This document shows, in pieces, positions 12,089 through 23,375 of a DNA stretch of 64,000 nucleotides; the stretch's first letter is position 1, and each line of letters starts with the position of its first letter. A program made the position numbers and the translations under genes. Origin of the DNA: an uncultured Candidatus Melainabacteria bacterium (GTDB taxonomy: Bacteria > Cyanobacteriota > Vampirovibrionia > Gastranaerophilales > Gastranaerophilaceae); assembly GCA_947570135.1 (NCBI GenBank), contig CANOTP010000001.1, positions 62,001-126,000 on the forward strand, written 5' to 3'. The notes below the pieces were generated by a model, which saw only the letters and a list, made by a program, of their open reading frames with translations, searched no databases and had not been told where the DNA came from.

Positions 12089-12826
12089 CTATATATCTAA
12101 TTTTTTGCCATAATTACCAGTTGAAACATAGTTATTTTGCGTTTGATTGACTTGCATACTCAATCTAATAATATCGTCAAGGTTTAGGACTTTAAAATTA
12201 GGTTTGTTACTTATAAAATCTGCTCCTGATTGTGTTATTCCTGATGATGCAACTAAGATTACTTCATTAGCTTGAAAATCCTCTCTACAACCCCATAAAG
12301 CTCTTATTGGTTCAGGCGGTACTGGATTTCTGTAATGTTTGCATTGAACTATTGCCCTGTAGCCTTCTTGTTCTAAGATGATATCTACTCCGCCATCACC
12401 TGAGCCTTTTGTTACTGTGGCTTTATATCCGTTTAGAATAAAGATTTTTGCTACCTCTTGTTCAAATTGCCATCCGTCAAGATTCCACCACCATGATTGT
12501 TCTGCCCAGTAGCTTGAATTACGTTTTAATTGATTTTGTGAAAACTGCCTATATGGACTGCCATTGAATAAATGACTCCAGTATACACAGAAGGCAATAA
12601 AACTAATTAAACAACTCCACCAGAAAACAGAAAACGGTAAAACCTTAGTATCACCTAAATAATAAAGGAAGTAATTAAATCCGCCGACAAAACCTACAGA
12701 CAAAATACATTCCTTCCATAAACCATGTTTATTGACTTCTATTAAGAATTTTGTCGTTCCAACAATAAGTGCTATGAATATTGTTATTAAGTTATAAAAA
12801 TCTCGATAATCTGGTTTCCGTGCCAT
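12089..12826 (-). CDS. Membrane-anchored Mrr-type restriction endonuclease domain protein
   Basis: Of 245 residues, the first ~100 hold about three hydrophobic segments. The rest is a restriction-endonuclease (Mrr/RecB-like) domain: FEQEVAKIFILNGY, then the catalytic GGVDIIL and the QxK motif AIVQCKHY, and later EVILVASSGITQSGADF. Mrr proteins cut modified or foreign DNA. Membrane anchoring is a known variation for this fold. The protein ends GNYGKKLDI, a tail shared with three other proteins of the operon. It abuts the neighbouring gene at 12088. Confidence 0.82.
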   Translation of the reverse strand: MARKPDYRDFYNLITIFIALIVGTTKFLIEVNKHGLWKECILSVGFVGGFNYFLYYLGDTKVLPFSVFWWSCLISFIAFCVYWSHLFNGSPYRQFSQNQLKRNSSYWAEQSWWWNLDGWQFEQEVAKIFILNGYKATVTKGSGDGGVDIILEQEGYRAIVQCKHYRNPVPPEPIRALWGCREDFQANEVILVASSGITQSGADFISNKPNFKVLNLDDIIRLSMQVNQTQNNYVSTGNYGKKLDI

Positions 12827-12837
12827 GTTTTACCACC

Positions 12838-14214
12838 TTATATATCTAATTTTCTGCCTATTTTAGTTTTTGGTTTTGGCGGGAAGATTAATAGGTCTTG
12901 TATTTCTACAATTTGATGTGGTTGCAATTCAAAATCCATTGCAAATGAATTAATGTCATACCACATTTTCCCGCTATTTCTAAGTTCTATAAACTTTTTC
13001 TCCATATTATTATCAAAACATTCTAAACTTTGTATTTCTTCTATTGTGCAATTTTCAATATTTATTTTTTGTAGAGGTATAGTATTGCTTGAATTTTGTA
13101 CATTATCTATAAAATCAGGTTGTTGTGGAACCTCTTGAGACAAAATTTCAATAACTTCATTATATGCCTGCTTTATATTTTCATCATTGGGTCTGCATAT
13201 TAGTGCTAGTTCAAGTACTTGTTTTGTACTTTCATACTGCTGTACATAATTATATATTTCAGCAGAAAATAAATAAGCATCTACTTCATGGGGGTTAATT
13301 TCTGTTATTTTCATATAATCACGTATTGCACTTCCCAAATTGCCAACTGCTGAATACGCACTTGCTCTTGCATAAAAATATTCTATTTTTTTAGGGTTTA
13401 GTTTTATAAGTTCTGAAAAATCAGAAATTGCTTGTTCCCATTCTTCCTGTTCTAAATGTCTTTGTGCTTGTTCTTCTAAATGAGTATCAGGTAATATTGA
13501 AAGAATGTGCTTATAAGCATTATTAATTTTTTCATTATCTGGTAAAACTTCAATAGCTTGTTTCAATATATCTTTTGTCGCTTGATAACTTCCTGTAGAA
13601 TTATATATACTTACTAATTGCATATACGCATCGGATTCTTTATTATTAATTGCTATAATTTTAAGATAATCATAAACTGCATTTTTAAAATCATTATTTT
13701 TTATATAACTATCTGCTCTTAAATACAGTAAATCTATATCTTGTGATTCTGTTTCCAGTATTGCAGTTAAAATTATCATTGCACTCTGATATTGCCGATT
13801 AGCAGAACTTTTCTTTGCCATTGCCTTTAATATTTCAATCTCATTAGGGTTAATTTTTAAAATTTTCTTATAATCATTTACAGAATTTTCATTCTGTCCA
13901 TCGTTGTTGTATAAATCTGCTCTTGTATATAGTAAATCCAAACTTTCAGGATAAGCTTTAATTAAAGCTGTGCATTCCCAAATTGCCTTTTTCCATTCTT
14001 TATTTTCAGCATATTCTTTTGCTAATTGAAAATGCTTTTGAACTTCGTTTTCATTTATTTTTTGCTTTTTATTATTTACAGGTTTCTTTTTTGCTGAATT
14101 TTGTATCATTGCAGAAATAAGAAGTAAAAGAACATATATGACACCGCAACAAACCGCAAATATTAATACTATAAATTTTATTTTATAAAACAATGACAAT
14201 TCTTCCCACCACAT
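12838..14214 (-). CDS. TPR-repeat membrane protein with helix-hairpin-helix-like C-terminus
   Basis: The 458-residue protein starts with one membrane helix (FIVLIFAVCCGVIYVLLLLISAMI). It continues with about ten tetratricopeptide-type repeats, for example HFQLAKEYAENKEWKKAIWE and RHLEQEEWEQAISDFSELI. The last ~80 residues resemble a ComEA-like helix-hairpin-helix (NIENCTIEEIQSL..., FIELRNSGK) followed by FPPKPKTKIGRKLDI. Domain and tail are clearly homologous to the end of the other TPR protein at 14969. TPR arrays are protein-binding scaffolds; the shared end could be the part read by another operon member. Confidence 0.8.
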   Translation of the reverse strand: MWWEELSLFYKIKFIVLIFAVCCGVIYVLLLLISAMIQNSAKKKPVNNKKQKINENEVQKHFQLAKEYAENKEWKKAIWECTALIKAYPESLDLLYTRADLYNNDGQNENSVNDYKKILKINPNEIEILKAMAKKSSANRQYQSAMIILTAILETESQDIDLLYLRADSYIKNNDFKNAVYDYLKIIAINNKESDAYMQLVSIYNSTGSYQATKDILKQAIEVLPDNEKINNAYKHILSILPDTHLEEQAQRHLEQEEWEQAISDFSELIKLNPKKIEYFYARASAYSAVGNLGSAIRDYMKITEINPHEVDAYLFSAEIYNYVQQYESTKQVLELALICRPNDENIKQAYNEVIEILSQEVPQQPDFIDNVQNSSNTIPLQKINIENCTIEEIQSLECFDNNMEKKFIELRNSGKMWYDINSFAMDFELQPHQIVEIQDLLIFPPKPKTKIGRKLDI

Positions 14215-14223
14215 AATTACCTC

Positions 14224-14955
14224 TTATACACTTATAGTAAGCAATACCGAGTTATCCTCTAATAGTTCTTCCTGTTCCAATTTCATAGAAGAATTTTTAG
14301 CAATTTTTGATTTAATCTTATTGCAAATGTTAGTTTGCATAACATATTCATATTCTTTTTCTATCTTTGCAAAATATTTATGAATTTCTTTTAAATCAGC
14401 ATAACCAGTAGCTTTAAATTCGTATGCTCCATTTTTACTCGATTTTAATTCAATTAAGCAGTTTGGGATTTCAAAACTTAACTTTCCTCTTTCTTCTTTC
14501 GCAAATATTTTGAGATTATTTAAAGTTTGTTTTAATACTTCCTTATCTGTATAAATTGTAGGGAAATTATATACTGGCGTCTTTGTTTCAGAAATACTGT
14601 CAAAGAAACAAGGTCTGCCTACCACGTGTTCAACGGCATTAATAAAATTAGTCAATAATCTCTTATCTATATCAGTGGAAATAGAAGCTACTAATTTATT
14701 TTTTTCATATATCCAATAAATAGGATATTCTTTTGTGATATGCGTTTTTACATATCTGTATAGCATTGTATCTGTTTCACTAAAATCATATCCTGCTTTT
14801 TTAATATATTTTTTTAATTCTGCTTCATCTTCAAAATTAGTATATTTCCTAATTTCTTGAGACCTCATCCATTCATCAAATTTTTTAGCTCCCATTTTTC
14901 TGCGTTGCTGAGCCATCCATAATTCACCGTCTACTAAATCCTGTTTTATTGACAT
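14224..14955 (-). CDS. Ycf35/DUF1257-like protein with N-terminal extension
   Basis: The protein has 243 residues. The second half (about 125-243) follows the DUF1257/Ycf35 pattern. It has a short strand, a GAYEFKATGYADL segment, and the closing order Q-x-N/Y..(helix)..E-E-x-x-x-D-x-S-V-x-L-x-I-x-V (VMQTNICNKIKSKIAKNSS...LLEDNSVLLTISV). The first half is not recognised and has a basic start. I recall DUF1257 proteins being encoded with DUF2997 and Ycf46-like AAA proteins, which fits here, but the domain match is by eye only. No GRKLDI-type tail is present. Confidence 0.5.
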   Translation of the reverse strand: MSIKQDLVDGELWMAQQRRKMGAKKFDEWMRSQEIRKYTNFEDEAELKKYIKKAGYDFSETDTMLYRYVKTHITKEYPIYWIYEKNKLVASISTDIDKRLLTNFINAVEHVVGRPCFFDSISETKTPVYNFPTIYTDKEVLKQTLNNLKIFAKEERGKLSFEIPNCLIELKSSKNGAYEFKATGYADLKEIHKYFAKIEKEYEYVMQTNICNKIKSKIAKNSSMKLEQEELLEDNSVLLTISV

Positions 14956-14968
14956 TATCTATACTCCT

Positions 14969-16360
14969 TTACCAATCAATTTTTCTACCAATTTTATTTT
15001 TAGGCTTAGGTGGAAATTCTAACCTATCTTGAATATCAATCATTTGATGTGGCATTAAAGCGTAATCTGCCACAAAAGATTCTATGTCGTAATAAATTTT
15101 ACCGTTATTACGTTCTTTTATGAATCTTTCTGTTTTTTCTTCATCAAATCCGTCTATAGTAAGCAGATCATTTTTATTACAGGTCTCAAGTTTTACTTTT
15201 CTTGCTGAATATTGTTTACTGTCATTACTTATAGTGTATTCTGGTTCGTTATTTTTTATAATAGAATCATCATTGTGTAAAATTTTATAATCAATATCTT
15301 TAAGCAAATTTCTATATATTTGATTATCTGCAAGGTTTATTGCATTTTCTACTGATTTTTTAGCTTTTTCGTATTGATGTTCTTTATATTCTTTTAATGC
15401 TCTGTTATATATGCTTTCAGCTCTCTTTATGTCAAATTCTTTCTTTCGTTTTATTTCTTCTTCTTTTTGTTTTTTTAGTAATTTTTCTCTCTCTTGCTTT
15501 AATTTACTACATTCTTGTATTTTTTCACGTGCTTCTATTGCATATTCATTACGAAGTGTTGAAAAACTTTTATTACCGCAAGAACAATAATTCATCTTAA
15601 ATTTATAAATTTTTCCACATGAATTACATTTAAAAGAGTTCTTTTTTGAAACTTGATTGTAATAGTTTATTGCTTTATCATACTCTTTTAAATTCTGATA
15701 TATTTCACCTATTTTGAAATTGTACTTATCAACTTTACCTTCAAGGAAAGTTTCAACTTCCATGTAACTCAATGAATCAGAAATATCTTTAGTTTTAGTA
15801 ATTGCTATTTTTAAGTCCTCAATAGCTTTATCTTTGTATGATACTTGATTAAGCCCCTGATATGCTATAGCTCGATTATAATAAATATCAGGAATTTCTT
15901 TGTTATCCTTTACTTTGTTATAAAGCAATATGTAAGTATAATAGAATACAGCATCGTGAAAATTTTTCTCATCTATACTCTTTTTTGCTAAAAAATATAT
16001 ATCTTGATAACTTAAACGAGATAGGATATTTTTTATTTTATTAAAATATTCATTAGATTTTTCTGTTTCAACCCTGATATTATAAAGTTTTGCAATAGCA
16101 AAGTTTAATTCTAAAAATTCTATATCAGAACCGTTCGTTTTAATATTTTGCTCAACAAGATTTTTTAATTTTTCAATATCATCTAAAGAACCGTCTTGCT
16201 TGCACTTTTGCAAAATATTATTAATTTCGTTCTCTATTTCTACATTTTTATTATTTTCTTTTTGTTTACTTTTGCTTGATTTGAAATACTCATATATATT
16301 ATTAAACATAATAAGTATTCCCATAAATAATAAAGTAAATATTGCTTGAAATACTCGCAT
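14969..16360 (-). CDS. Second TPR-repeat protein with zinc-ribbon insert and helix-hairpin-helix-like C-terminus
   Basis: At 463 residues this has a hydrophobic N-terminus (VFQAIFTLLFMGILIMF). Several TPR-type helices follow, then a four-cysteine zinc-ribbon-like insert (FKCNSCGKIYKFKMNYCSCG, around residue 245). A highly charged helix (KQEREKLLKKQKEEEIKRKK) and a further TPR pair come next. The last ~80 residues match the end of the TPR protein at 12838 (KLETCNKNDLLTI..., FIKERNNGK, FPPKPKNKIGRKIDW). The two TPR proteins thus share both membrane anchoring and the tail, but differ in the middle. Confidence 0.8.
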   Translation of the reverse strand: MRVFQAIFTLLFMGILIMFNNIYEYFKSSKSKQKENNKNVEIENEINNILQKCKQDGSLDDIEKLKNLVEQNIKTNGSDIEFLELNFAIAKLYNIRVETEKSNEYFNKIKNILSRLSYQDIYFLAKKSIDEKNFHDAVFYYTYILLYNKVKDNKEIPDIYYNRAIAYQGLNQVSYKDKAIEDLKIAITKTKDISDSLSYMEVETFLEGKVDKYNFKIGEIYQNLKEYDKAINYYNQVSKKNSFKCNSCGKIYKFKMNYCSCGNKSFSTLRNEYAIEAREKIQECSKLKQEREKLLKKQKEEEIKRKKEFDIKRAESIYNRALKEYKEHQYEKAKKSVENAINLADNQIYRNLLKDIDYKILHNDDSIIKNNEPEYTISNDSKQYSARKVKLETCNKNDLLTIDGFDEEKTERFIKERNNGKIYYDIESFVADYALMPHQMIDIQDRLEFPPKPKNKIGRKIDW

Positions 16361-16378
16361 TAGTATTATTGTTGCTCC

Positions 16379-18085
16379 TTAAAAATCAATAGTCCTACCA
16401 CCTCTGGTGCGTTTAATGGTTTCGGTTGTTTTCTTAGCTTTTTCTTTCTTTTTAGCGGTTTCTTCGTTTTCCTCAGGTACATAATTGTAATTTTCATCAT
16501 GTGCGGTAGCAGCTACTGCCCTTTCGTTTGCCCATTCTCTAATTGCTAAAATCTGCTCAGATTGTGTAGTAGATAGTGGTACAGTGTTTTCTATTACTTT
16601 GAACAAATCTTTTTCCTGTAAAGTTCTGTTTTCTGAAAATGCTTCAAATAATGCGGAAACTACAGCCTGTTCGATTTCAGAACCGCCAAAACCTTCTGTA
16701 GCTTGTGCCAGTCTATTTAATAAATCATCCGTAATCGCAAAATCTTTTGACTTACTGCCGTATAATCTTTTTTCAAGGTGCAACTTGAAAATAATCTTAC
16801 GTTCATTTATTGTCGGTAAATCTACAAAAAATATCTCGTCAAATCTACCCTTACGTAACATTTCAGCAGGTAAACGACTAATATTATTTGCTGTTGCGAT
16901 AACAAATACAGGTTTAGTTTTTTCATTCATCCAAGTAAGGAATGTTCCAAATACTCTTGAAGTTGTACCGCCATCCATTTCACCGCCTGAACTTCCGCCA
17001 AAACCTTTTTCAATTTCATCAATCCAAAGAATAGAAGGTGCAACGGCTTCAGCTGTTTGAATTGCTTTTCGCATATTTTCTTCTGAACTTCCAATAAGTC
17101 CTGAAAATATTTTACCAATATCTAGCCTTAATAAGGGTAATTGCCACATTGCACTCATAGCCTTTGCTGTCATTGACTTTCCGCAACCTGCAATCCCTGT
17201 AATTAAAACTCCTTTCGGGGCAGGTAAATTATAATCTTTTTGTGCAGAACCAAGCCATGAATTGTTACGTTTTGACAACCATTTTTTCATATTCTCTAAA
17301 CCGCCTACATCATCAATATTTACGGTGGTATTGATAAATTCAAGTATTCCAGTCTTTTTAATAACCTGACATTTTTCTTCTAGGATAATATCTAATTCTT
17401 TAACTGTTAGTTGTCCTTTTGTAACCATCGCCCTTGCGAACGCATTTTCAGCTTCCTGTAAAGTTAAACCTTGTGCAGCTTTACATAATTGTTCCTTATC
17501 CGTTTCAGATAACTTAATTTTGATGCCAGAGCCTTCATTTTGTTCAATCATTTCATTTAAAAGACCTTTTAGTTCTTCTAACGTAGGTAAGTCAAAATCA
17601 ACTACTGTAATATCTTTTTGCAAATCATTAGGTAATACAAGTGTAGGTGCAAGAATAACAACATTCTTTGAATATTCAGCATTTTTTAAAGAACCTGCTA
17701 TATCTCTGATTTTTCTAATAAATCCGTAATCAGCGTTTCTGCCTTGTATTCCTAAAAGCGGATGGACATCTTTCAATATCATAATTGCAGGTTTATTATA
17801 GCTATCAATGTAATTTAAGGCTTCAGTAGGATTTTCAGCATTGTTAATATTTACTTTTTCCTGACCTTCTTCAATATTCTTCTTTAAACCCTCTGTAGCA
17901 CTCCAGATAAAAACATCACGCTTACTTTTAATAACTTTTGTATTGTTAGCAATTTTAGTTATAAGTTCTATAACTCTTATTTCTTCCCATGTAGGAATAT
18001 ATACAAAACTGAACCTCGCCTTAAAAAGGTTGGTTAAGTACTGTTCTGTTTTCCTAATGCCTTCCAATGCCACAGTTTTTGCCAT
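16379..18085 (-). CDS. Ycf46-type AAA+ ATPase
   Basis: This protein of 568 residues has a degenerate N-terminal AAA-like half and an active C-terminal AAA domain. Walker A is ITGIAGCGKSMTAKAM, Walker B is ILWIDEIEKGFGG, and the arginine-finger region is MLRKGRFDEIFFVDLP. That layout is the one in Ycf46 proteins of cyanobacteria and plastids. It would act as a cytosolic remodelling ATPase. Its C-terminus reads RGGRTIDF, matching the tail of three neighbours. It is the only clear energy-coupled protein of the operon, and its start lies four bases from the radical SAM gene. Confidence 0.9.
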   Translation of the reverse strand: MAKTVALEGIRKTEQYLTNLFKARFSFVYIPTWEEIRVIELITKIANNTKVIKSKRDVFIWSATEGLKKNIEEGQEKVNINNAENPTEALNYIDSYNKPAIMILKDVHPLLGIQGRNADYGFIRKIRDIAGSLKNAEYSKNVVILAPTLVLPNDLQKDITVVDFDLPTLEELKGLLNEMIEQNEGSGIKIKLSETDKEQLCKAAQGLTLQEAENAFARAMVTKGQLTVKELDIILEEKCQVIKKTGILEFINTTVNIDDVGGLENMKKWLSKRNNSWLGSAQKDYNLPAPKGVLITGIAGCGKSMTAKAMSAMWQLPLLRLDIGKIFSGLIGSSEENMRKAIQTAEAVAPSILWIDEIEKGFGGSSGGEMDGGTTSRVFGTFLTWMNEKTKPVFVIATANNISRLPAEMLRKGRFDEIFFVDLPTINERKIIFKLHLEKRLYGSKSKDFAITDDLLNRLAQATEGFGGSEIEQAVVSALFEAFSENRTLQEKDLFKVIENTVPLSTTQSEQILAIREWANERAVAATAHDENYNYVPEENEETAKKKEKAKKTTETIKRTRGGRTIDF

Positions 18086-18088
18086 TAT

Positions 18089-18685
18089 TTACCTCACTAA
18101 TTCCGCCAACGCTTTAAAATCACCCATACCTGTCATAATAATTTTGTTATCAGGTGATATTCTTACTTCAATTTTGTTCTTGCACTCTGTTATTACTGAT
18201 TCATCATATCTATCAGTTAAAAAATAGTAATTCTGATTGCTCGAACCAACCCAAGCCCGTGAATAATCGGTTTTATCCTGCTCATACTTGCCGTCAATCA
18301 GAATATCCACGTACATTTTGAGTTCTTGAAAATCTTTATTGTCTTTGAGGGTGGAATATTCATACCCTGTAAAAACAATTACAGACAGTCCAAGTTCTTG
18401 AACTATCTTTGAAATTTTTGTTACAGCTTGTATTTGTTCTAATGGTTCTCCACCTAACCAAGTAATACCTTCAATTTTATCTTTATAGGATTTAATTAAT
18501 TCAACAAAATTATTCACGTCATAAGATGTACCGCCGTTAAAATCCCACATATGAGAGTTTGCACAGCCTTTGCAATGGATAGAACAGCCTTGAACCCAAA
18601 TAGCAAAACGAGTTCCAACTCCTTCAACATTGGTTATAGGGATATATGAATTTATCCTAATGTCCATTCTGTTGATACTCCTCAT
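18089..18685 (-). CDS. Radical SAM protein, NrdG/activating-enzyme-like
   Basis: The protein is 198 residues. The CxxxCxxC cluster motif is seen in WVQGCSIHCKGCANSHMW (about residues 30-47). It is followed by GITWLGGEPLEQ, which matches the GGE motif for SAM binding. The size and order match the short activating-enzyme type (NrdG/PflA-like) that generates radicals or modifies a protein partner. No ribonucleotide reductase or formate lyase lies nearby, so the target is probably an operon partner. ATG 18667 is an alternative start. The gene overlaps the DUF2997 gene by about 28 bases. Confidence 0.88.
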   Translation of the reverse strand: MRSINRMDIRINSYIPITNVEGVGTRFAIWVQGCSIHCKGCANSHMWDFNGGTSYDVNNFVELIKSYKDKIEGITWLGGEPLEQIQAVTKISKIVQELGLSVIVFTGYEYSTLKDNKDFQELKMYVDILIDGKYEQDKTDYSRAWVGSSNQNYYFLTDRYDESVITECKNKIEVRISPDNKIIMTGMGDFKALAELVR

Positions 18686-18869
18686 TTGAAGTATAAAGAT
18701 GTTGTTCTGTTTCGTTGTATTCGTGCGTAAATTCTGATTTTACAGTTTTTGCCCCTGTTAAATTCTCAACTTCTTTAATGTAGTTTAAGCAGGATTTACC
18801 TTTAATGCCTACTGTTTCGGATTCAATTCTGCCGTCTGGATATACTCTGATTTTAATTTGCTTTGCCAT
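18657..18869 (-). CDS. DUF2997 protein
   Basis: This first gene of the operon encodes 70 residues. The start MAKQIKIRVYPDGRIESETVGIKGKSCLNYIKEVE matches the DUF2997 pattern (I-x-I-x-I-x-x-DG-x-I, then GxKGxxC). The conserved cysteine near residue 28 is present. Such small proteins are often linked to Ycf46/DUF1257/radical SAM genes, from memory. A possible role is substrate or carrier for the radical SAM protein, which starts inside its 3' end. No other gene precedes it within the same transcription unit. Confidence 0.75.
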   Translation of the reverse strand: MAKQIKIRVYPDGRIESETVGIKGKSCLNYIKEVENLTGAKTVKSEFTHEYNETEQHLYTSNEEYQQNGH

Positions 18870-18978: not shown

Positions 18979-19073
18979 ATGCACCATATCTCTAAAAAAA
19001 TATTTGTGGTATGATTTTCTTGTAGAACTTATGCACCTGTATAGATAGACTGTTGTAAACTTCTACGGTGCAT
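18979..19073. repeat. ATGCACC/GGTGCAT repeats beside the tyrosine recombinase gene
   Basis: ATGCACC occurs at 18979 and 19031 on the plus strand, and the inverted form is at 19067. A second inverted copy lies upstream of the gene at 19662. TACGGTGCAT at 19064-19073 is repeated exactly at 19659-19668. Short repeated arms around a recombinase gene are what one expects for its own binding sites. Confidence 0.45.
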
Positions 19074-19636
19074 TAAAGTTCAAAATTATTGTAAGAATAG
19101 TCGATTTCTTCCTGAGCTATGCCAATATATCTAAGTGTTATTGCTGGGCTTGAATGATTTAAAATCTTTTGCAACAATGCCACATCGTTATTCTGTTTGT
19201 AAAAGAAGTATCCGAATGTCTTTCTCATAGTGTGTGTTCCAACGTTGGCAGTGATTCCAAGATGTTCACACGCTTCATTTATAAATCTGTATACCTGAGA
19301 GCGGTCAAGTCTGCAATGCTTTTTACCCACAAACAAAGGTTCATCATCCCCGATTGCGTAAGTTCTTGCTCTTTCAACGAGGTATAACTTAATAAGTGCT
19401 TTTAGCTTTTTATTAAGTGGAAATCGTTTGTATTTACCTGTTTTTTGCTCATAAATTTCAACATAGTTCTTATTCTCAACCGATTCAATGTTTAAGTTTA
19501 GAATATCACTAACACGTAACCCAGTATTTGTGCCAAATGCCCATATAAGCTGATTCCTACGACTGTGCCTCGCTAAAAATTTTTCAATCGCTTCTACATC
19601 TTTCTTTTTCTTTATTGGCTCTACTAAATTCTTCAT
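19073..19636 (-). CDS. Tyrosine recombinase (XerC/D-like), catalytic domain only
   Basis: I choose ATG 19636 because GGAAGG lies ten bases upstream; it gives 187 residues. The catalytic set is complete: Arg41 (NTGLRVSD), the HTMR motif at 135-138, His161 (LNHSS) and Tyr170 (TLRYIG). The usual N-terminal core-binding domain is reduced to about 20 residues, so it is much shorter than XerC/D (about 300). Short forms are known in mobile elements. A role in resolution, inversion or insertion of the neighbouring defence cassette is possible. Repeats on both sides could be its sites. Confidence 0.85.
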   Translation of the reverse strand: MKNLVEPIKKKKDVEAIEKFLARHSRRNQLIWAFGTNTGLRVSDILNLNIESVENKNYVEIYEQKTGKYKRFPLNKKLKALIKLYLVERARTYAIGDDEPLFVGKKHCRLDRSQVYRFINEACEHLGITANVGTHTMRKTFGYFFYKQNNDVALLQKILNHSSPAITLRYIGIAQEEIDYSYNNFEL

Positions 19637-19749
19637 AATATTCATTCCTTCCCGCACTTACGGTGCATGTAAGAATGTAATAAGGTTCTTTACAAAATTC
19701 CAATAAATACTATGTTGTGGTAAAATTATAATAATTTAAGAGTAGTGAG

Positions 19750-20775
19750 ATGAGTAATTTAGAAAATGAAATTGATATTTTAAATAAATATATTCCTAAT
19801 CTATTGAAACGATCAGATTATGAAAACTCCTTGCATAATTGTATCGATAATGCTTTTAAAATATATGAATCAAAAGATTGTAAAACTATAGAAAATACAA
19901 AAACGGTAACTCATTGTTATTTTTTACTACCTAATCAACAAAATTCTGATTGTGGTTATGAAGATTTAGCAAAAAGAATGCTTTATTCATTGGTTAACTA
20001 CGTTATTCCAAGAAGTAAAATACAAGCAGCTAATGGGCAGCCCGAAGAACATGTTAAACTGCATGAAGAAGCCAAAAAGAAATTTATAGACTATTGGACT
20101 TACAAAAAATCCTTGCGTGATAAAGGTGAAATAACACCAGAAGATTACCGTAGAAGTGGTGAAGAAGGTGAAATTTTATTGTTTTTGTTAGCCGAACAAA
20201 TATTAAAATTACCGCAAGCAATATGTAAAATGAGTCTTAAAACAAGTAATAATATGCCAATACATGGGAGCGATGGCGTTCATATCGGTTTAACAGAAGA
20301 TTTACAGAAATTGGCTTTGCATTATGGTGAGGCAAAGATATATGCCAATATATCAGATGCTATTAAAAATTGTATTGAAAGTATTGAGCCTTACTTAACA
20401 AGAAGTGATGACGGCACAGACTTAAATCTATTAAATACCTACTGTGATTTTGGAAATAGTGATTATGAAATTGCTTTAAAAGAAAAATTAAAAAATTATT
20501 TTGACCCAGAACATAGAAAAAACAAATTATTTACAGAAGTTAGAGGAATTTGCTTAATAGGTTTCAATGATAACAATATTTATGATTATAACAACATACA
20601 AGAAACTGCAAGAAAAGCTACAGAAGCAGCTTCTCAATGGATGCAAAAATTTTCAGAGAAGGTTAATGAACATAAACTGGAAAACATTGTCATAAATGTA
20701 TTTTTCATTCCAATGTCTAGCGTAGATAAATTTCGAACAACTTTCGCTAAGATAGTGGGAGGTGAAAATTTATGA
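19750..20775 (+). CDS. hamA: HamA, Hachiman effector nuclease (DUF1837)
   Basis: The protein is 341 residues, usual for the family. The DUF1837 core is recognised by the GEEGEILLFLLAEQ segment, GSDGVHIG with Asp175, and the HYGEAKIY motif with Glu194 and Lys196; together these form the nuclease centre. HamA with HamB forms the Hachiman anti-phage system, in which HamB senses aberrant DNA and HamA degrades nucleic acid. A TATAAT at 19727-19732 is its likely -10 box. It overlaps HamB by four bases (ATGA), so the pair is coupled. Confidence 0.92.
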   Translation: MSNLENEIDILNKYIPNLLKRSDYENSLHNCIDNAFKIYESKDCKTIENTKTVTHCYFLLPNQQNSDCGYEDLAKRMLYSLVNYVIPRSKIQAANGQPEEHVKLHEEAKKKFIDYWTYKKSLRDKGEITPEDYRRSGEEGEILLFLLAEQILKLPQAICKMSLKTSNNMPIHGSDGVHIGLTEDLQKLALHYGEAKIYANISDAIKNCIESIEPYLTRSDDGTDLNLLNTYCDFGNSDYEIALKEKLKNYFDPEHRKNKLFTEVRGICLIGFNDNNIYDYNNIQETARKATEAASQWMQKFSEKVNEHKLENIVINVFFIPMSSVDKFRTTFAKIVGGENL

Positions 20776-23375
20776 CCACTTTCTTTGATGAATTAAGTTC
20801 TGAAATTGCTAATAAAGATTATTTTAAAAAACATTTCAATCGTTTATTTATAATTTCTGCTTGTAAGCAATTAGAAAGAATACCCAATATAAGATTTTTG
20901 CACAATGAAATTCCAGATTTGAAATACCTGTTAGAAGTAGCACAAATTTTTGCACAATGCTCAAACGAAAATATGCAAAATATATCTCAACGGATAGCTC
21001 AGTACGTTATAGAATTTGTGGATAATGATATATTTAAACAGGTAGCATATATGATATTGGAACTGCTTGTAAATAAACAATCAATTAATCTAGCACAAAA
21101 ATTACATAAATTGCCAGAGAATGTATATTATTTGCAACCATTTAAGTTTACTTTAGAAAATATCAATAGAGATATCGAGTATTCTTTCTATGCAACGGAT
21201 AATGACATTGTTCATTGTAATAAGTTTCAAAAAGATTTTTGGCAAGGTGTAGAGAATTCTAGTAATATAGTGTCAATATCCGCTCCAACTTCTGCTGGGA
21301 AATCTTTTATCGTTCAAAAATGGTTAAAGTATCATCTTGAATTGGATAATTCTAATAATATTAATGTAGGTATAGTTGTACCAACAAGAGCATTAATAAA
21401 TCAGTTTGAGCAAGATTTAAAAGAAGAATTTCAAAATTATAAATCCAAAGTAAATATTATATCAATGCCATTTGCTAAATCTCCCTTAGTACATAAAAGT
21501 AAAAATATATATGTTTTTACGCAAGAGAGAATGTCTATATTTCTATCACGAAATAAATTTCAAAGTTTTAAAGCGGTTTTTGTAGATGAAGCTCATAAAG
21601 TTGGAGATAACGAACGTGGTGTTTTATTACAACAAGTTGTTGATGAAGTAATAAGACGAAATAGCAATACTAAAGTTGTTTTTGCTGGACCATTTGTAAA
21701 AAATCCTGAAGATGTGTATATAAATGCTACTAAAATAAAAAGTACGCTACAGACAGTCGACAGAAACTATTTTCACATATGCAGAAGGATTTCTGACCAA
21801 AGAGTTTGCCCTAAAAAATTAGCTATAGAATTAGAAATTAATAATACGAAACAGAGAGTTGCTAAAGTTAATTTAACTAATGCTATGCCTAATTCCAAAG
21901 CTAAAATTTTAGGCTGTTGGGCTTATAATATTGGTAAAAATGATTATGGAAATCTTATTTATGCAGATGGTGGAGCTCAAGCGGAATCAATAGCTGATTA
22001 CATTTATGAGCTTGAAACTGATACCTATGCAAATGATGTTGAAATTAATGCTCTTATAGATTTGTGTAAAACAATAGTGCATGAAAAATTTTTACTTATT
22101 AAATTATTAAAAAAACGAATTGCATTTCATTATGGAAGCATGCCACAAATTATTAGACAACAAATTGAAGACTTATTTAATAAAAAAATTTTAAAGTATG
22201 TAATTTGTACATCTACACTTCTTGAAGGCGTAAATCTCTCTTGCAAAAATATTTTTGTAAAAGAACCTAAAAAAGGACAAAACAAACCTATGTCTGGTGC
22301 AGATTTATTTAATCTTCTTGGTAGAGCAGGACGTCTAGGAAAAGAATTTAGTGGAAATATTTATTATGTAGATTGGAATTCCGCACCTACAGAAACAGTT
22401 GAACAGAATGTAGAGCGTACAACTCATAAAATAATTTCAAATAACCTTCCTGACATTATAGAGTCCTTTAAAGTAGGACTTCCTAAAAACAATCTAAATA
22501 AAGATGGCATAGAAGCAACGGTCGGTTATATTTTTCAAGAATACTTGAAAACAAATGATATAAAACTATGTAATGAGGTTGCATCGATTTGTTCAAATGA
22601 ACAAATAAACGAACTAAATCAAGTATTAAAAGAATATTCTAGTAAAATAAGTATTCCTAAAGAAATTCTTGAAAATCATCCTACGACCTATCATTATTCT
22701 ATGCAAAAACTATTAGATAGATTTTATGAAAAATACAATGAAAATCCAAATGAAATAAATAATATAATACCTGATTTGTCAGAAGAAGGAATGTATCAAA
22801 ATCTTATATCAATATTAAGTCGTATGATTAAATGTGATTTTAATACAGGATTATATGAGGCAATTTATCCTGCATTAATAACAACAAGTTGGATAAGATT
22901 TAAAAATTTACCTACCATTATTCAAAAACGAAGAAAATACCTTGAAGATAAAAATATATCTGAAACCTTTAATACTACAATAAGAAAGATTTTTAATGAT
23001 GTAGATTTATATGCAAGATATAAAGTTCCTAAATTACTATCTTGTTATGTTGATGTAATGAACTATTTTTTTGAGCAGATAGATAAGGATATTCCAAAAG
23101 AACAAATTAAAGATATAGCAATGTTCTTAGAATACGGAATTAACAAGAAAACTCAAGCCTCAATGATTATTTTGGGATTATCTCGTTCTACTATATTTGA
23201 ATTAGAAAGTCTTGAAGATGAGGAAGGTAATCTAATTTTAAATAATGAAAATATGACAGAAGCTGAAGCACTACAATGGCTTAATGATAATATTCAAAGA
23301 ATAGAAGAAAATAACTTAATTCCCAAACTTTTAATTGATGAAATAAATGATGTTATAAATGCTTATGTTATATAG
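20772..23375 (+). CDS. hamB: HamB, Hachiman helicase
   Basis: This 867-residue superfamily 2 helicase has Walker A at residues 171-178 (APTSAGKS), motif Ia-like VVPTRALIN, and DEAH at 272-275 (FVDEAHKVGDNERG). The C-terminal helicase motifs are TSTLLEGVNLS and NLLGRAGRLGKE, of the Ski2-like type. The long C-terminal region of about 300 residues is helical and unassigned. It is the sensor/motor subunit paired with HamA. All helicase motifs look intact, so the system is probably active. Confidence 0.93.
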   Translation: MTTFFDELSSEIANKDYFKKHFNRLFIISACKQLERIPNIRFLHNEIPDLKYLLEVAQIFAQCSNENMQNISQRIAQYVIEFVDNDIFKQVAYMILELLVNKQSINLAQKLHKLPENVYYLQPFKFTLENINRDIEYSFYATDNDIVHCNKFQKDFWQGVENSSNIVSISAPTSAGKSFIVQKWLKYHLELDNSNNINVGIVVPTRALINQFEQDLKEEFQNYKSKVNIISMPFAKSPLVHKSKNIYVFTQERMSIFLSRNKFQSFKAVFVDEAHKVGDNERGVLLQQVVDEVIRRNSNTKVVFAGPFVKNPEDVYINATKIKSTLQTVDRNYFHICRRISDQRVCPKKLAIELEINNTKQRVAKVNLTNAMPNSKAKILGCWAYNIGKNDYGNLIYADGGAQAESIADYIYELETDTYANDVEINALIDLCKTIVHEKFLLIKLLKKRIAFHYGSMPQIIRQQIEDLFNKKILKYVICTSTLLEGVNLSCKNIFVKEPKKGQNKPMSGADLFNLLGRAGRLGKEFSGNIYYVDWNSAPTETVEQNVERTTHKIISNNLPDIIESFKVGLPKNNLNKDGIEATVGYIFQEYLKTNDIKLCNEVASICSNEQINELNQVLKEYSSKISIPKEILENHPTTYHYSMQKLLDRFYEKYNENPNEINNIIPDLSEEGMYQNLISILSRMIKCDFNTGLYEAIYPALITTSWIRFKNLPTIIQKRRKYLEDKNISETFNTTIRKIFNDVDLYARYKVPKLLSCYVDVMNYFFEQIDKDIPKEQIKDIAMFLEYGINKKTQASMIILGLSRSTIFELESLEDEEGNLILNNENMTEAEALQWLNDNIQRIEENNLIPKLLIDEINDVINAYVI

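Follow-up and report, generated by a model that had tools for sequence, protein, structure and literature searches.

HbYX and GQYL tails dock an AAA ring and several unrelated regulators (PAN, Rpt, Mpa and PafE) into one protease. We analysed a 64,000-nucleotide stretch of DNA (hereafter the window; contig CANOTP010000001.1, positions 62,001 to 126,000) from an uncultured Candidatus Melainabacteria bacterium, in which an earlier note had described an operon whose AAA ATPase, two TPR proteins and Mrr-type nuclease end in one common C-terminal tail. The operon and its homologues, here called the cassette, resemble the HbYX/GQYL systems in that unrelated proteins, an AAA ring among them, would share one short C-terminal docking tail. 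The cassette tail differs in having Asp or Glu, not Tyr, at position -2 from the C-terminus, and Arg at -5. No proteasome-family protein (PF00227) was found in 15 of 16 genomes that carry the cassette, while controls including E. coli and B. subtilis were positive. With a different sequence, and with neither proteasome nor HslV in those 15 genomes, membership of the HbYX group fails, and a proteasome or HslV hub was ruled out for them.

Single components of the cassette resemble other described proteins. The AAA protein has two tandem AAA modules, as in Cdc48/p97, with a predicted active second module; it differs in that it does not have two active sites (in nearly all homologues the first module is without a P-loop), and in being bacterial, mobile and equipped with a tail of its own. 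Its AAA module also resembles IetA of the IetAS anti-phage system (E=1.7e-23), but no IetS protease was recognised in the operon, the cassette proteins gave no peptidase match, and the partners are others. Among the glycyl-radical activases, NrdG is the one most like the radical SAM protein, although the cassette has no NrdD-like partner and the tail glycine is not conserved. A DUF2997-ycf35(DUF1257)-fed7 cluster has been described in cyanobacteria (PMC4284462), and we found it in cyanobacterial genomes; DUF2997 and a DUF1257 protein are common to both arrangements, whereas the cyanobacterial cluster has a ferredoxin instead of the radical SAM protein, no adjoining AAA or HHH gene and no tails. 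No paper in the literature searched, with subscription journals outside it, describes the cassette or the tail or combines these families. The putative complex of AAA, HHH_3, DUF1257-like, DUF2997 and radical SAM proteins is apparently undescribed so far.

A shared C-terminal tail on unrelated proteins

The four tails lie where the earlier note had placed them, each at the stop codon of its minus-strand gene (Table 1). Among 8,085 six-frame stop-to-stop segments of the window, the pattern G..[LIVM]D[IWFLVYM]-stop was matched by these four alone. Two degenerate-pattern scans of the DNA of the whole 1.9 Mb genome returned 11 and 14 matches. The non-operon matches that were checked end frames of at most 67 codons, with the exception of two genes of real length on contig C4, encoding an AAA protein that ends GRALDV and an HHH protein that ends GRIVDF. 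Both are part of another operon of like composition, this one chromosomal (HHH-radical SAM-AAA-DUF1257-DUF2997; locus L108, G000 contig C4:176479-181221). Codons vary among the copies of the tail (GGC/GGT, AGA/AGG, TTA/ATT), so that it is the protein that is conserved. An RNA or DNA element at the gene ends was ruled out, since the codons vary and the protein positions alone are conserved.

To survey homologous operons, each family was assigned by its own profile and a strict tail was defined as R.[LIVMF][DE][LIVMFWY] at the stop codon. It was present in 87/94 HHH, 80/114 AAA and 22/26 Mrr proteins, counts that include some loci fetched twice; the distinct proteins with a strict tail number 67 AAA, 70 HHH and 13 Mrr. 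None of 78 radical SAM or 81 DUF1257-like proteins carried it, and among other open reading frames (ORFs) of at least 100 amino acids it occurred in 5 of 2,028, all five being cassette neighbours missed by the profiles. The two findings that the earlier note had named as refuting it were both looked for and neither was obtained: homologues from related operons carry the tail, and it is missing from unrelated proteins. In the window's TPR proteins, the C-terminal domain proved homologous by profile comparison to the HHH_3 domain (PF12836) of the orthologues (98% probability). Both TPR proteins share this HHH_3-like domain and were therefore counted as one family. Two further claims of the earlier note also held: only the TPR pair shares a domain, AAA, HHH and Mrr being mutually unrelated, and the likeness of the four ends is not accidental, chance being ruled out by the counts in window, genome and neighbouring ORFs.

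The tail reads mostly RGGRx[LI][DE][FVI] in AAA proteins, [GE]Rx[ILV][DE][FILW] in HHH proteins and GR[KR][LI]D[IV] in Mrr proteins. Its Arg is invariant in 41 AAA proteins, and all other tail positions vary; among 70 HHH tails, for example, 34 have G and 25 have E at position -6. The window's Mrr protein has K where its relatives carry R. Entropy in the AAA alignment is mostly 2-3.5 bits per column along the linker and 0-0.66 bits at R561-R564 and D567. The same motif stands on unrelated architectures (AAA, HHH_3, TPR without HHH, and Mrr). What these proteins share is thus a C-terminal motif that is real, specific and conserved widely.

A scan with the AAA alignment yielded 46 loci. Conservation of the tail extends over the homologous operons of Vampirovibrionia, Clostridia, Bacilli, Coriobacteria and Actinobacteria, with tail-bearing cassettes in Candidatus Gastranaerophilales, other Vampirovibrionia, Clostridium, Aeribacillus, Anaerostipes, Oscillospiraceae, Coriobacteriaceae and Sumerlaeota, and on actinobacterial plasmids including those of Rhodococcus and Arthrobacter. 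Tailed AAA proteins with no detected HHH partner occur in Accumulibacter, Nitrosomonadales and a Treponema plasmid; in a Phycisphaerales bacterium, again with no HHH partner detected, the AAA tail is one residue longer. Within the window's own family the chromosomal cassette type, as at L108, is common and is present in most related species of the genus, and the mobile type is sporadic. The mobile copies have closely related integrases next to them, those near other cassettes being 75-96% identical to that of the window. The cassette is mobile, and is found also on conjugative plasmids and in several phyla. The AAA alignment detected no relatives in IMG/VR viral contigs, and annotated phages yielded distant AAA relatives only (~30-35% identity).

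Several variants were observed alongside these cassettes. One locus (L200 4951-11933, minus strand) has seven tandem HHH_3 proteins beside one AAA, all with an ERxxD[LIF] tail. A sub-type of Mrr with a C-terminal extension (L071 13792-14943 and L210 8312-9256) has no tail. A mycobacteriophage AAA protein (L246 3836-5614) ends VRVLDL, which is a strict tail, and has no tail-bearing neighbour within the 9.6 kb read. A distant AAA type (L234 5408-7521, L247 1598-5578, L217, L218 and L229) ends R[KQ][VL]L[IVG], and in Comamonas and a Streptococcus satellite phage a neighbouring gene has a similar end, possibly a divergent shared tail. Related AAA proteins of other systems hint at tails that run through the operon but differ in sequence: they end YRRISH in Paenibacillus, together with SRVIHF and KRVIRL; RRQVLG in Comamonas, where a neighbouring gene ends RRNILI; and TRKVLV in a Streptococcus satellite phage, with NRKIKI on a neighbouring gene. 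These few examples suggest that each system may own its address code.

Candidate readers of the tail

The motif, its carriers, its restriction to the cassette and its persistence in the absence of the radical SAM gene are shown; we infer that the tail docks, that the AAA protein reads it, and that the role is probably one in defence against foreign DNA. Our leading reading, which we put at an even chance of being correct, is that the tail is a docking motif marking the members of a complex centred on the Cdc48-like AAA protein, with the AAA ring as its most likely reader. A short linear motif, [GE]-[RK]-x-[LIV]-[DE]-hydrophobic-COO-, would be presented on a flexible linker by the HHH_3/TPR scaffold proteins (mostly membrane-anchored), by the membrane Mrr nuclease and by the AAA subunit itself. 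The AAA ring would bind partner tails either at the degenerate first module or in the pore, while the AAA's own tail would compete in cis or bridge to the adjacent subunit. The radical SAM, DUF2997 and DUF1257-like proteins would be tail-less modules of the system. Of the three roles suggested by the earlier note (docking tail, degron and substrate of the radical SAM protein), docking is the best supported; the tail probably lets its carriers attach to each other or to a single partner. The common partner that the note proposed would most probably be the AAA ring.

The AAA model, computed with AlphaFold2 (AF2) at a predicted local distance difference test (pLDDT) of 84, resembles p97 over both modules (~570 columns, template modelling score up to 0.64). 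In the first module the P-loop is missing in nearly all homologues, a second P-loop pattern being found in only 2 of 98; in the second module Walker A and B are intact in 98/98. The modelled linker is disordered (pLDDT 37), the tail rises to 65, and R564 lies in a beta bridge, a signal that may point to the AAA as docking site. A transmembrane-like segment, usually near the N-terminus, is present in 53/76 HHH and 17/17 Mrr proteins, and none was found in the AAA and radical SAM proteins. Given these membrane segments and a soluble AAA, the tail may link the soluble ring to membrane-anchored DNA-binding or DNA-cutting partners. The DUF1257-like protein is predicted, by model (pLDDT 90) and fold search, to consist of two TBP-like domains. 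The DUF1257-like cassette proteins have a conserved C-terminal stretch of their own, approximately LExEExLEDNS[IV]xLTI, which is unlike the tail.

Reduced operons provide a more direct view of what the tail depends on. Three genomes (L069/L184, L093 and L186) carry integrase-AAA-TPR-Mrr only. All three lack the cognate radical SAM gene and the DUF1257-like gene, and DUF2997 is absent from the two tested; G033, the sole such assembly with a quoted completeness, is 99% complete. The TPR proteins of these operons have no recognisable HHH domain. They and the two intact Mrr proteins retain the tail, which the AAA protein has kept in one operon and lost in two. The tail therefore persists without radical SAM, DUF1257 and HHH, and no constant partner other than the AAA is left. 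Obligatory modification by the radical SAM protein was ruled out by the tails kept here, and the earlier note's proposal of a radical SAM substrate finds no support as a requirement.

Co-occurrence was counted in a 90% non-redundant AAA set, with phylogeny not corrected for. The AAA tail was present in 49/55 cases with a radical SAM gene within 6 kb and in 7/25 without, and in 45/46 cases with an HHH gene and 11/34 without. Because the cassette moves as a unit and kinship is uncorrected, these counts do not identify the reader of the tail. Several observations weigh against the AAA ring in that role. The structural signal at the AAA tail is modest and comes from a single-chain model. Outside the tail, almost no conserved core position separates tailed from tail-less AAA proteins, so that no specialised tail pocket is visible. 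Some tails of the reduced operons may have arrived recently, since Mrr modules swap between cassettes; the Mrr protein of L069 is 92% identical to that of the window. The reader could also be a host protein.

Docking into a hub other than the AAA, be it the DUF1257-like, DUF2997 or radical SAM protein of full cassettes or one supplied by the host, is rather unlikely. The lack of tails on radical SAM (0/78) and DUF1257-like (0/81) proteins is what receptors would show, and AAA proteins from operons without hub candidates are mostly tail-less. The reduced operons, on the other hand, keep the tail with radical SAM and DUF1257-like genes gone, and DUF2997 gone in the two tested; proteasome and HslV are excluded in 15/16 genomes, and a host reader would need to have been retained across several phyla. 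We consider it improbable that the NrdG-like enzyme modifies the tail of each carrier. The AAA tail does accompany a radical SAM gene lying within 6 kb, the enzyme has kept its iron-sulphur motif, and no glycyl-radical enzyme that could account for an NrdG-like protein was seen in the cassette. That correlation is, however, confounded by common inheritance of the cassette, three genomes without the cognate gene keep the tail, and E replaces glycine in about a third of HHH tails, with R alone invariant. A glycyl radical on the tail glycine was ruled out as a general reading, E being frequent there in HHH tails. It is similarly doubtful that the enzyme, with DUF2997 as carrier or adaptor, modifies the tails of several full-size proteins and so switches complex assembly, the reduced operons running unmodified. 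Modification of the tail by the radical SAM protein is thus possible, but not required; if true, it would be a new kind of multi-target protein modification.

There is little likelihood that the tail serves as a degron, or as a handle for unfolding, through which the AAA or a host protease would pull out or degrade the cassette proteins and so hold them inactive until they are required. Its C-terminal position after a flexible linker, alongside an unfoldase-type AAA, would suit such a function, but the AAA bears the tail too, none of the operon proteins was recognised as a protease, and 15/16 genomes have no proteasome-family protease. The degron proposal of the earlier note is less supported than docking, and no evidence favours it. 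That the ends resemble each other by chance, or that nothing but the gene ends has a common origin, is scarcely credible. A homologous C-terminal domain is indeed common to the two TPR proteins, but there is no unrelated match in ~2,000 ORFs, and the tail spans several phyla, variable linkers and varying codons.

Organization and neighbourhood of the operon

Table 1. Features of the operon and its surroundings (window coordinates).
Feature	Coordinates	Strand	Evidence
Operon: DUF2997, radical SAM, AAA, TPR, DUF1257-like, TPR, Mrr	18869 to 12089	-	
DUF2997 small protein, 70 amino acids, without tail	18657..18869	-	PF11211 E=7e-15
NrdG-like radical SAM protein, without tail	18089..18685	-	Pfam Fer4_12/Radical_SAM
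Cdc48-like AAA ATPase with tail	16379..18085	-	PF00004 E=6e-29; p97-like over both modules
AAA tail GRTIDF + stop codon	16379..16399	-	
First TPR protein, C-terminal HHH_3-like domain and tail	14969..16360	-	weak TPR matches; HHH homology by profile comparison
First TPR tail GRKIDW + stop codon	14969..14989	-	
DUF1257-like protein, without tail	14224..14955	-	alignment with cassette homologues; no Pfam match of its own above cut-off
Second TPR protein, N-terminal transmembrane-like segment, C-terminal HHH_3-like domain and tail	12838..14214	-	TPR families; alignment/profile comparison with HHH_3 orthologues
Second TPR tail GRKLDI + stop codon	12838..12858	-	
Mrr-type nuclease, N-terminal transmembrane-like segments and tail	12089..12826	-	Mrr_cat PF04471 E=5e-21
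Mrr tail GKKLDI + stop codon	12089..12109	-	
Tyrosine integrase of mobile element	19073..19657	-	PF00589 E=5e-26

In an alignment of 25 homologues of the DUF2997 protein, Cys27 and Gly13 are invariant. The radical SAM protein scored 125.1 bits against the NrdG model, for which the cut-off is 126.1, and the CxxxCxxC iron-sulphur motif is present in 64/65 of its homologues. A Hachiman pair, HamA/HamB (19750-23375, plus strand), is the immediate neighbour of the cassette and is encoded on the opposite strand. Neighbours of the cassette at L047 match candidate defence genes, and the other eight neighbours tested gave no defence match. Mobility, the Hachiman neighbour and the nuclease together suggest defence, and the cassette may plausibly act against foreign DNA.

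A six-residue terminal address code on an AAA machine, its scaffolds and a nuclease would define membership of the complex. DUF1257 and DUF2997, which are common in cyanobacteria and have no function assigned in the papers found, would gain a testable set of partners, and the tail would offer a simple sequence handle for finding further effectors in cassette-bearing genomes.

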